A stretch of DNA of 32,827 nucleotides from Candidatus Thermoplasmatota archaeon (GTDB taxonomy: Archaea; Thermoplasmatota; Thermoplasmata; RBG-16-68-12; JAGMCJ01). Positions 2,353-5,073 of this stretch are shown in pieces (the stretch's first letter is position 1; every line of letters starts with the position of its first letter). The notes under the pieces are model-generated. The model ran no database searches. It was not told the DNA's origin and saw only the letters and a program-made list of their open reading frames with translations. The position numbers were made by a program, and so were the translations under genes. The stretch lies in NCBI GenBank assembly GCA_022848865.1, contig JAJISE010000021.1, positions 1 to 32,827 on the forward strand, written 5' to 3'.

Positions 2353-3783
2353 CTACTCTTTGCTCTTTTTCCTCTGAGACAAGTATGCGAACAGAAGCCC
2401 GGCCATCACTATTGTCTCCAGCAGGACTATGCCTATCAGTGCGTTGAGCCATGTTGCGGTCTCGGCGTCCTTTATATCCTGCTGCTCCTGGCTCCGCAGT
2501 TCCTCTGCCATGTGCTCTATCTCGATCTTGTCCTGCAGCATCTCATAGAAGCCGTGCCACTGCACGTAGTCCGGTCCCATCATGAAGGCGCCCATTCTGG
2601 CCCTGCGCCCTTCGTGATGCCACATCTCGTACAGCTTGAACTCGATGGGCTCGTCGAAGCTCTCGTCCGTGAGCAGCCCATCCTCGCGCAACTCGTCCAC
2701 GATCGCCTTCGCTTCCGTGTACTTCTGGTTGTAGATCTCGACAACGACATCCGCCTGCTTGTAGTAGTTGTCCACCCAGGTCGTGGAGTGGCACTGCTCG
2801 CACACGGCCTTCATCCGGTCGCGCTTGACCTCCCAGCTCGTGCCGTCGCTAATGCTGTACCCGAGGCTATTGGCGGTGTTGTCCGTGTGGCGGGAAATCG
2901 CGGACTCGAGCTCCCAGCTCAGCCTTGAACTGATATCATGCGTCACCGGCACTCCTGAGGCGGCCGACATGTGGCATGCGGCACAGGTGGGAGTGCGGAA
3001 GTCCACGCCCGCCTCCCAGTCATCCTCCCCCCAGTTCCAGCTCTCGCCCTCGGCGGCATAGATGTTCCCGTGCTTGGATTCCATGTAGATCTCTATCTGC
3101 GGGTGATCAGGACCCATGTGGCACTGTCCGCAGGTCTCGGGGTGACGTGCTTCCTCGATCGAGAACGTGTGTCGTGAGTGGCAAGCGGAGCAACTCCCCC
3201 TGCTGCCATCCGGGTTGATCCGTCCGATCCCGTTGTTAGGCCATACTCTGAAGTCCTCGGTGGTCTTGCCCGTCATGTTCGTACCGTGACAGGACAGGCA
3301 TCCCCTCAGGGTGCCGGCGTCGATCACCTCTTCGCCCTCGATGATGATGAACCCGCCCTCGATCTGGCTTTCGAGGAATGGCAGCTTCTCCGCAGTGAAC
3401 AGGTACTCGTAGTACACGGCACCGAGCGAGTGAAGGCTCTGTCCGAACTCCTGGGCCTCTGTTGCATGGCACTGCCCGCAATCGTCGGGCGTGACGACGA
3501 CAGCTATCGTGTATCCATTGTGGGATATCGCGTCGGTATCGGAGGCGCTCGCCCCGTGGCAGGTGATGCAGGTGACGTTCTCGTCGGCGTGTTCGCTGCT
3601 TTCCCAGTCATCGATTATGCCCAAAAGCACTCCAGAGCTTTCGTGGCAATCCGCACAAGGATCCGCCCCGACGGAGGCCAGCAATGCGATTACGGTGATG
3701 AGCATCAGGAAGCTCGTCCCGAAGACTATCATTCTCTTGTTGGCCTTCAGTGTCTCAAGGAACTTCGCACTCTGTGACGGCAT
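2353..3783 (-). CDS. Membrane-anchored octaheme cytochrome c, hydroxylamine oxidoreductase (HAO) family
   Basis: A 476-residue protein with eight CxxCH haem sites starting at C43, C72, C102, C162, C198, C218, C267 and C328. The count and spacing fit HAO-type octaheme cytochromes, and the region 387-414 (WHHEGRRAR ... GPDYVQWHGFYE) matches the conserved C-terminal helical part of that family as I know it. A hydrophobic helix at 18-40 and another at about 445-468 imply an outward-facing haem domain anchored at both ends. Family members oxidise hydroxylamine or hydrazine or reduce nitrite/NO. Direction depends on a cross-linking tyrosine to the catalytic haem (fourth site, C162): Y406 and Y413 are the candidates and need an alignment. 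No cytochrome c maturation genes are in the window. Start: ATG 3783 behind GGAGG. Confidence 0.88.
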   Translation of the reverse strand: MPSQSAKFLETLKANKRMIVFGTSFLMLITVIALLASVGADPCADCHESSGVLLGIIDDWESSEHADENVTCITCHGASASDTDAISHNGYTIAVVVTPDDCGQCHATEAQEFGQSLHSLGAVYYEYLFTAEKLPFLESQIEGGFIIIEGEEVIDAGTLRGCLSCHGTNMTGKTTEDFRVWPNNGIGRINPDGSRGSCSACHSRHTFSIEEARHPETCGQCHMGPDHPQIEIYMESKHGNIYAAEGESWNWGEDDWEAGVDFRTPTCAACHMSAASGVPVTHDISSRLSWELESAISRHTDNTANSLGYSISDGTSWEVKRDRMKAVCEQCHSTTWVDNYYKQADVVVEIYNQKYTEAKAIVDELREDGLLTDESFDEPIEFKLYEMWHHEGRRARMGAFMMGPDYVQWHGFYEMLQDKIEIEHMAEELRSQEQQDIKDAETATWLNALIGIVLLETIVMAGLLFAYLSQRKKSKE

Positions 3784-3858: not shown

Positions 3859-5073
3859 TCAGAGCAGCCTCTTCGACCCTTCTATCTTCTTGATGTCCGT
3901 GATGTCCTGGGTTACCTCCAGACATCCGATGTAGTCCCCGTTCTTGCCGTGAACAGGGAAGTAGCGTATGAAAATCATCCTGCCCTTGACCTCAATCCAG
4001 AACTCTGCGACATCCCGCTCCCCGCTCTTGAATTCCTCCACGATCTGGTTTACGACATGTACGCTCTTCTCCGGATGACACTTCTGCACTTCTCGACCGA
4101 TGACCGCCTTCGTTCTTGTGAAGATCTTCTCCTTTGGTTCGCTGAAGTAGCGAACCGTGTCCTTGTCATCCACGAACGTTATGTCAAAGGGGAGCGTGTT
4201 GAGAACCGCTTCGACCTGCTCCCTTGAGAGATGGCCCATTCCGAGGTCGATCAACCCCTCCACTTCGACCTTGGGTGCTTCCTCGACCTCCTCGATCGCC
4301 ATCTTGGCGGGCTCTGGAGTGAAACAGCAGTAGCCGAGCTCGTCGAACTGTCGCCTCGTGTCCTTCCACTCGGCGTCGCCCATGACCTGCATCGCGGCCG
4401 GGAAGAGTATGTTGTTCTCCTTGTAGAAGTGACCAGAAAGCATGTCTGCCAGCGATGCTGCGACGTTGCTGAGCCTGCTGACGAACTCCTCGAAGGCCAC
4501 GCCCTCTCGCGTTTCGAGGACCGTGAATAGGCCCTTCTTGATCTCCCTGATCTTGTCGTGCTCGATCCACATCATGGCGGGCGGTTCCTTTATCCCGTGC
4601 TTCTCCAGGTACGGGAAGAGAACGTTCTCCTCGCGCACGTAGTGGCTCTCGGAATCCTGAAGATGATGCGCGATGTGGTCAAGGTGTTTGATCTCGTCAG
4701 CGACCGAGTCGAAGTCTCCCTTCCCCCTCAGGTCCTTGGCGACGATGCCCAGCTCATTGGCGTACTCAAGGAGGATCTTGTGCTCTCCCATGAGGATGCC
4801 TATCGGGTGATCTGGCGGGGCCACGAGCTCTTCCTTATCGCCCGACTCCCTGAGGATGGCGAGGTGGACGTCGCACAGCCCGTGAACCTCATCGGTGGAC
4901 ATGCCTTCCTTGATGATCTCCTCCTCGATCTTGGATATCTCGACCGGCGTCACGTCCTTCAGGAATTCCTTGAACTCCCCCTTCACGACATCGGGATCCT
5001 CTCCCTTGTGCAATCTCCTGATGATGTTCTTCAACACTTCCTTCTTCTCTTCGTCCTTGGACGTGCCATTCAT
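3859..5073 (-). CDS. DUF438 - hemerythrin (HHE) - PAS domain protein
   Basis: A 404-residue cytoplasmic protein in three parts. Residues 1-80 match the helical DUF438 region. Residues 85-225 form a hemerythrin-like four-helix domain with candidate di-iron ligands H89, H98, H130/H133, H144-x3-E148, H172 and H215-x3-E219. Residues 285-395 form a PAS domain ending in VTQDITDIKK. Such proteins are thought to sense or handle O2, NO or iron; there is no DNA-binding or kinase output here. Its position 75 bases upstream of the HAO-family cytochrome, on the same strand, suggests a link to reactive nitrogen species. The start ATG follows AAAGGTGGTGAAG. Confidence 0.88.
   Translation of the reverse strand: MNGTSKDEEKKEVLKNIIRRLHKGEDPDVVKGEFKEFLKDVTPVEISKIEEEIIKEGMSTDEVHGLCDVHLAILRESGDKEELVAPPDHPIGILMGEHKILLEYANELGIVAKDLRGKGDFDSVADEIKHLDHIAHHLQDSESHYVREENVLFPYLEKHGIKEPPAMMWIEHDKIREIKKGLFTVLETREGVAFEEFVSRLSNVAASLADMLSGHFYKENNILFPAAMQVMGDAEWKDTRRQFDELGYCCFTPEPAKMAIEEVEEAPKVEVEGLIDLGMGHLSREQVEAVLNTLPFDITFVDDKDTVRYFSEPKEKIFTRTKAVIGREVQKCHPEKSVHVVNQIVEEFKSGERDVAEFWIEVKGRMIFIRYFPVHGKNGDYIGCLEVTQDITDIKKIEGSKRLL

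Follow-up and report, generated by a model that had tools for sequence, protein, structure and literature searches.

In the window, by which we mean the whole stretch of 32,827 nucleotides that was analysed, the minus strand encodes an octahaem cytochrome c of the hydroxylamine oxidoreductase (HAO) family. Family membership is secure, and on balance we favour, by a small step, a reductase held at the cell surface, with nitrite, NO or hydroxylamine as putative substrate. The source genome was examined by family searches and in single stretches. The features concerned are:

2353..3783, minus strand: octahaem cytochrome c of the HAO family, 476 amino acids with eight CxxCH motifs, assigned by profile, PDB sequence and fold matches
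3286..3300, minus strand: fourth CxxCH (C162-H166), at the position of HAO's catalytic haem 4 in the alignment; C162, C165 and H166 are invariant
3103..3108, minus strand: D226-H227, counterpart in the alignment of the HAO-family catalytic Asp-His pair, invariant in 35 sequences
2554..2559, minus strand: W409-H410; W409 stands in the column of the HDH/HAO-type cross-linking Tyr and is invariant, H410 nearly so
3676..3732, minus strand: N-terminal hydrophobic helix from hydropathy (amino acids 18-36), signal anchor or signal peptide
2386..2442, minus strand: C-terminal membrane helix (amino acids 448-466), with a positively charged tail behind it
3859..5073, minus strand, as the octahaem gene: DUF438-hemerythrin-PAS protein, 75 bp upstream; adjacency kept in the congeneric genomes L007 and L008
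1300..1614, plus strand: FixX-like ferredoxin, beside an ETF-QO/ETF set in the sister genome L007

Profile and PDB matches, congeners and dN/dS values establish that the octahaem gene is real and not a chance reading frame. Read from 3783 to 2353 with the stop codon included, the minus strand gives an ORF of 476 amino acids; the plus-strand frame is broken. Exactly eight CxxCH motifs start at C43, C72, C102, C162, C198, C218, C267 and C328. This confirms the count and the position of C162 as the fourth site in the original prediction, which gave no strand. The gene is present in one copy in the 2.03-Mb source genome. In two congeneric genomes (L007 and L008) the gene order is unchanged and the octahaem is 95-97% identical; nucleotide comparison with these congeners yielded a dN/dS of ∼0.08-0.2, corresponding to purifying selection. 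Within the order, 6 of 37 genomes carry the gene. Contamination of the bin is an unlikely source, because the gene order is shared by the two congeners and six of the seven CcmE-bearing genomes of the order also have the octahaem.

The assignment to the HAO family, as predicted originally, was supported consistently by profile, sequence and predicted fold. Pfam PF13447 matched with an E value of 4e-32 and 111.9 bits against a curated cut-off of 21.9, the best stretch covering residues 196-375 only. The NCBIfam HDH model scored 81.5 bits, below its cut-off of 900. In a sequence search, HAO-family chains of the PDB matched at E values between 3e-50 and 8e-15, among them 4qo5 (3e-50), 6h5l (4e-28), the nitrite-reducing Kuenenia HAOr (Kustc0458), and 4fas/1fgj (1e-23). 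An AlphaFold model (pLDDT 71, built without haems) retrieved 11 structures at E < 0.001, all of the HAO family, with 4qo5 in first place and TM scores of 0.5-0.67. 4qo5 is IhOCC, the membrane-associated octahaem of Ignicoccus hospitalis (Parey et al. 2016). A closer kinship to NrfA or other multihaem families had been named as a finding that would overturn the assignment, and only weak matches were found there. NrfA, ONR and MccA matched partially in sequence (E 4e-8 or weaker vs 4e-78 for 4qo5), and the fold search with the model gave no significant match to NrfA or MccA (E > 1). An identity as NrfA, ONR, OTR or MccA is ruled out by sequence and fold.

C162, earlier presumed to bind the catalytic haem, indeed aligns with catalytic haem 4 of HAO. 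The HAO Asp-His pair is kept as well: D226-H227 follows the sixth haem site, as in the aligned anammox HAO-family sequences. In oxidative HAO and HDH, a Tyr from one subunit forms a cross-link with haem 4 of its neighbour. In the alignment no cross-linking Tyr was found in the source octahaem. Y406 and Y413, which had been put forward as candidates, both lie outside the column, and the aligned residue is W409; Y413 is invariant and located about one helical turn from the site. In this column HDH-like anammox sequences have Tyr, HAOr-like sequences Trp, one reductive-type sequence His and Ignicoccus Phe; the source octahaem and its family have Trp. Trp is also found in a second, more distant HAO-like octahaem (L118), which is encoded on the same contig as the first in the Bathyarchaeota genome G332. 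The column was assigned from the alignment and the published His/Tyr rule (PMC12758564), not from a structure; because the only match of the 6h5l C-terminal fragment was to itself, the anammox loci were used to place the column. A shift by one residue is possible, which would bring H410 into the column and would likewise leave it without Tyr. In the octahaem's family H389 and M401 deviate from the HAO pattern, and given these residues the axial ligands of one haem may be changed. Oxidative HAO-family enzymes are reported to carry the cross-linking Tyr, and those without it are regarded as reductive (PMC12758564). Since the source octahaem is a family member that lacks this Tyr and has W409 as in Kuenenia HAOr, which reduces nitrite to NO (PMC12485887), its sequence argues for a reductive enzyme.

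The protein had been described as anchored at both ends on the outer membrane face. The C-terminal anchor and the outer-face placement are retained; the N-terminal helix is clear, but may be either an anchor or a cleaved signal peptide. The C-terminal membrane helix is present in all full-length archaeal members (15/15) and in none of the bacterial relatives (0/64). The octahaem of one Methanosarcinales (L014) carries a PGF-CTERM signal near the cut-off, which would fit a surface location.

Relatives of the octahaem occur in Thermoplasmatota, Bathyarchaeota and Methanosarcinales/ANME at 56-71% identity, and in many bacterial phyla at roughly 34-44%. In the tree, the archaeal sequences (Thermoplasmatota, Bathyarchaeota, Methanosarcinales) form one clade with a support of 100/99. 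This clade, the bacterial relatives and IhOCC are split from anammox HAO, HDH and HAOr, again with 100/99, in a tree that has several long branches and unsure deeper joins. HAO-family octahaems in archaea are not new, examples being those of Ignicoccus and Ferroglobus. A cluster of 11 archaeal sequences has been known since 2015 (PMC4429474). Literature searches covering Thermoplasmata and Bathyarchaeota found nothing on the C-terminally anchored archaeal branch. The octahaem belongs to a branch of a known family that has been little described, and does not represent a new type of enzyme.

Among known systems, IhOCC is the best match in sequence and fold; it is archaeal, has eight haems, falls into the same large tree clade and lacks the cross-linking Tyr. 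However, identity is only ∼27%, Asp-Val replaces Asp-His, the column contains Phe instead of Trp, and IhOCC stands outside the clade of the other archaeal sequences. HAOr shares the Trp, the Asp-His pair and the fold with the source octahaem, but HAOr-like sequences are separated from it by a long, fully supported branch, and HAOr is soluble with Kustc0457 as redox partner (PMC12485887). The reverse-HURM pathway of Nautilia combines Nap, a reductive HaoA and Hcp (PMC3701875). HaoA of this pathway (Nautilia, Campylobacter) resembles the octahaem in its proposed chemistry, and Nap and Hcp are encoded beside octahaem relatives; such a gene set was not found in the source genome. Nitrosomonas HAO (1fgj) and anammox hydrazine dehydrogenase (6hif) have the family, the fourth haem and the Asp-His pair in common with the octahaem, but possess a cross-linking Tyr of their own where the latter has Trp.

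The housekeeping context ascribed to the gene was only partly right, as the adjacent upstream gene encodes the DUF438-hemerythrin-PAS protein. This gene is probably co-transcribed with the octahaem gene, its product being a probable partner or sensor. A DUF438-hemerythrin homologue also adjoins the octahaem in three Myxococcota/Deltaproteobacteria loci (L029, L039, L086); a literature search for DUF438 with hemerythrin found nothing on point. Hcp adjoins relatives in three related Bathyarchaeota (L011-L013) and one Bacillota (L025), the latter also with RIC. NapA together with NapD lies beside a relative in one Deltaproteobacterium (L048), a NapA-like gene in one Gemmatimonadota (L084), and a flavodiiron gene in one Methanosarcinales (L014) and one Deltaproteobacterium (L086); these neighbour counts stem from few independent lineages. 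By a rough, uncomputed estimate, the chance of meeting a single-copy gene within 6.5 kb is far below 1% per genome. Among the bacterial relatives, the majority lack an adjoining nitrogen-oxide gene and have an unknown membrane protein there instead, which speaks against the nitrogen-oxide reading. In 48 bacterial loci (e.g. L049:9295-10104) a conserved protein of ∼270 amino acids with ∼8 membrane helices is encoded directly downstream of the octahaem. It had no Pfam match and is a probable membrane partner of the bacterial octahaem branch.

No maturation gene was found within the window. Haem attachment had been expected to be encoded elsewhere, and contig C24 carries CcmA, B, C, E and F (system I). 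The same contig encodes a second octahaem, a thioredoxin-like protein, and an undecahaem cytochrome together with cytochrome b6 and its small partner. Within the order, CcmE and CcmC/CcmF-type genes accompany the octahaem in all six genomes that carry it. The genome search proposed originally for maturation genes and quinol partners yielded the Ccm set and, as a possible quinol partner, a cytochrome b6-undecahaem module. Here (L106:13668-15695), the genes for cytochrome b6 and a small second subunit come after that for the undecahaem cytochrome; similar sets are present in related genomes (L108, L109, L110), and a function as quinol-to-cytochrome module is possible. The second octahaem (L107:2020-3807), near the Ccm set, matched 6i5b best in the PDB (E 3e-35) and NrfA weakly, and gave no HAO match. 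In the source genome no haem-copper oxidase, nitrate reductase or Hcp was found; among molybdopterin enzymes the search found just a formate dehydrogenase, and among prismane proteins just a CO dehydrogenase. As the genome assembly reaches 96% completeness, these absences are not final.

We infer the direction, substrate, electron donor and physiological role of the octahaem as follows. The protein would be exported, its eight haems attached by the system I machinery, and held on the outer face by the C-terminal helix and perhaps also by the N-terminal one. Electrons of the membrane pool would reach the haem wire, probably via the cytochrome b6-undecahaem module, and pass to haem 4 (C162), taken as five-coordinate. 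With D226-H227 as presumed proton donors and no Tyr cross-link, nitrite, NO or hydroxylamine would there be reduced towards hydroxylamine or ammonium, in detoxification or respiration. A point against this reading is that neither a nitrate reductase nor Hcp of its own is apparent in the genome; nitrite would have to be supplied externally. For the DUF438-hemerythrin-PAS protein, a role in sensing or repairing nitrosative damage is possible.

It is less probable that the octahaem is an electron conduit or a terminal reductase for metal oxides, humics or a syntrophic partner, in which haem 4 would have no part in nitrogen-oxide chemistry. The protein is anchored and multihaem, the genome encodes more multihaem cytochromes besides the cytochrome b6-undecahaem module, and several relatives stem from methanogens and ANME, where multihaem cytochromes have been proposed to export electrons (PMC11024163, PMC10542353). 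However, invariance of the Asp-His pair and the haem-4 site in 35 divergent sequences goes beyond the needs of a wire, and nitrogen-oxide genes recur beside relatives. More doubtful still is a role in reducing sulfur oxyanions (tetrathionate, sulfite) with the HAO fold. For HAO-family proteins outside the nitrogen-cycle clade, including related Desulfobacterota octahaems, activity on sulfur species has been proposed (PMC9213671), which counts against the nitrogen-oxide reading; many anoxic sediments also contain little nitrite. Against a sulfur role stand the weak sequence matches to MccA and NrfA/ONR, their non-significant fold matches and the lack of recognised sulfur genes among the conserved neighbours. 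An oxidative, nitrifier- or anammox-like hydroxylamine/hydrazine dehydrogenase, although in keeping with family membership, the Asp-His pair and the nearby invariant Y413, is rejected as highly improbable given Trp instead of Tyr in the cross-link column, a clade apart from anammox HAO, HDH and HAOr (100/99) and no haem-copper oxidase found in the genome.

The proposed reduction of nitrite, NO or hydroxylamine can be extended to the whole branch only tentatively. The archaea-specific, C-terminally anchored HAO branch might be a surface reductase of these compounds in anaerobic archaea (Thermoplasmatota, Bathyarchaeota, methanogens, ANME), giving an unrecognised nitrogen-oxide respiration or defence; some such archaea would be without known nitrogen-oxide reductases. 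If nitrogen oxides are reduced, methanogens, ANME and uncultured Thermoplasmatota and Bathyarchaeota gain a cell-surface reaction, not assigned to them before, from nitrite or NO to hydroxylamine or ammonium. Carriers include named species with strain designations, Methanococcoides vulcani and Methanolobus profundi, in which direct testing may be possible. The octahaem also helps to place HAO-family proteins beyond the nitrification and anammox clades, where function is largely unknown.

Two further observations concern the gene surroundings. A relation of the FixX-like ferredoxin to the octahaem is putative; in the sister genome (L007:4291-8537) apparent ETF-QO, ETF and acyl-CoA dehydrogenase genes follow this ferredoxin. 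In one Methanosarcinales (L014:2792-4660) and one Methanoperedenaceae (L021:5967-7862), the octahaem is preceded on its strand by a gene for CO dehydrogenase, whose end lies 25-87 bp upstream.
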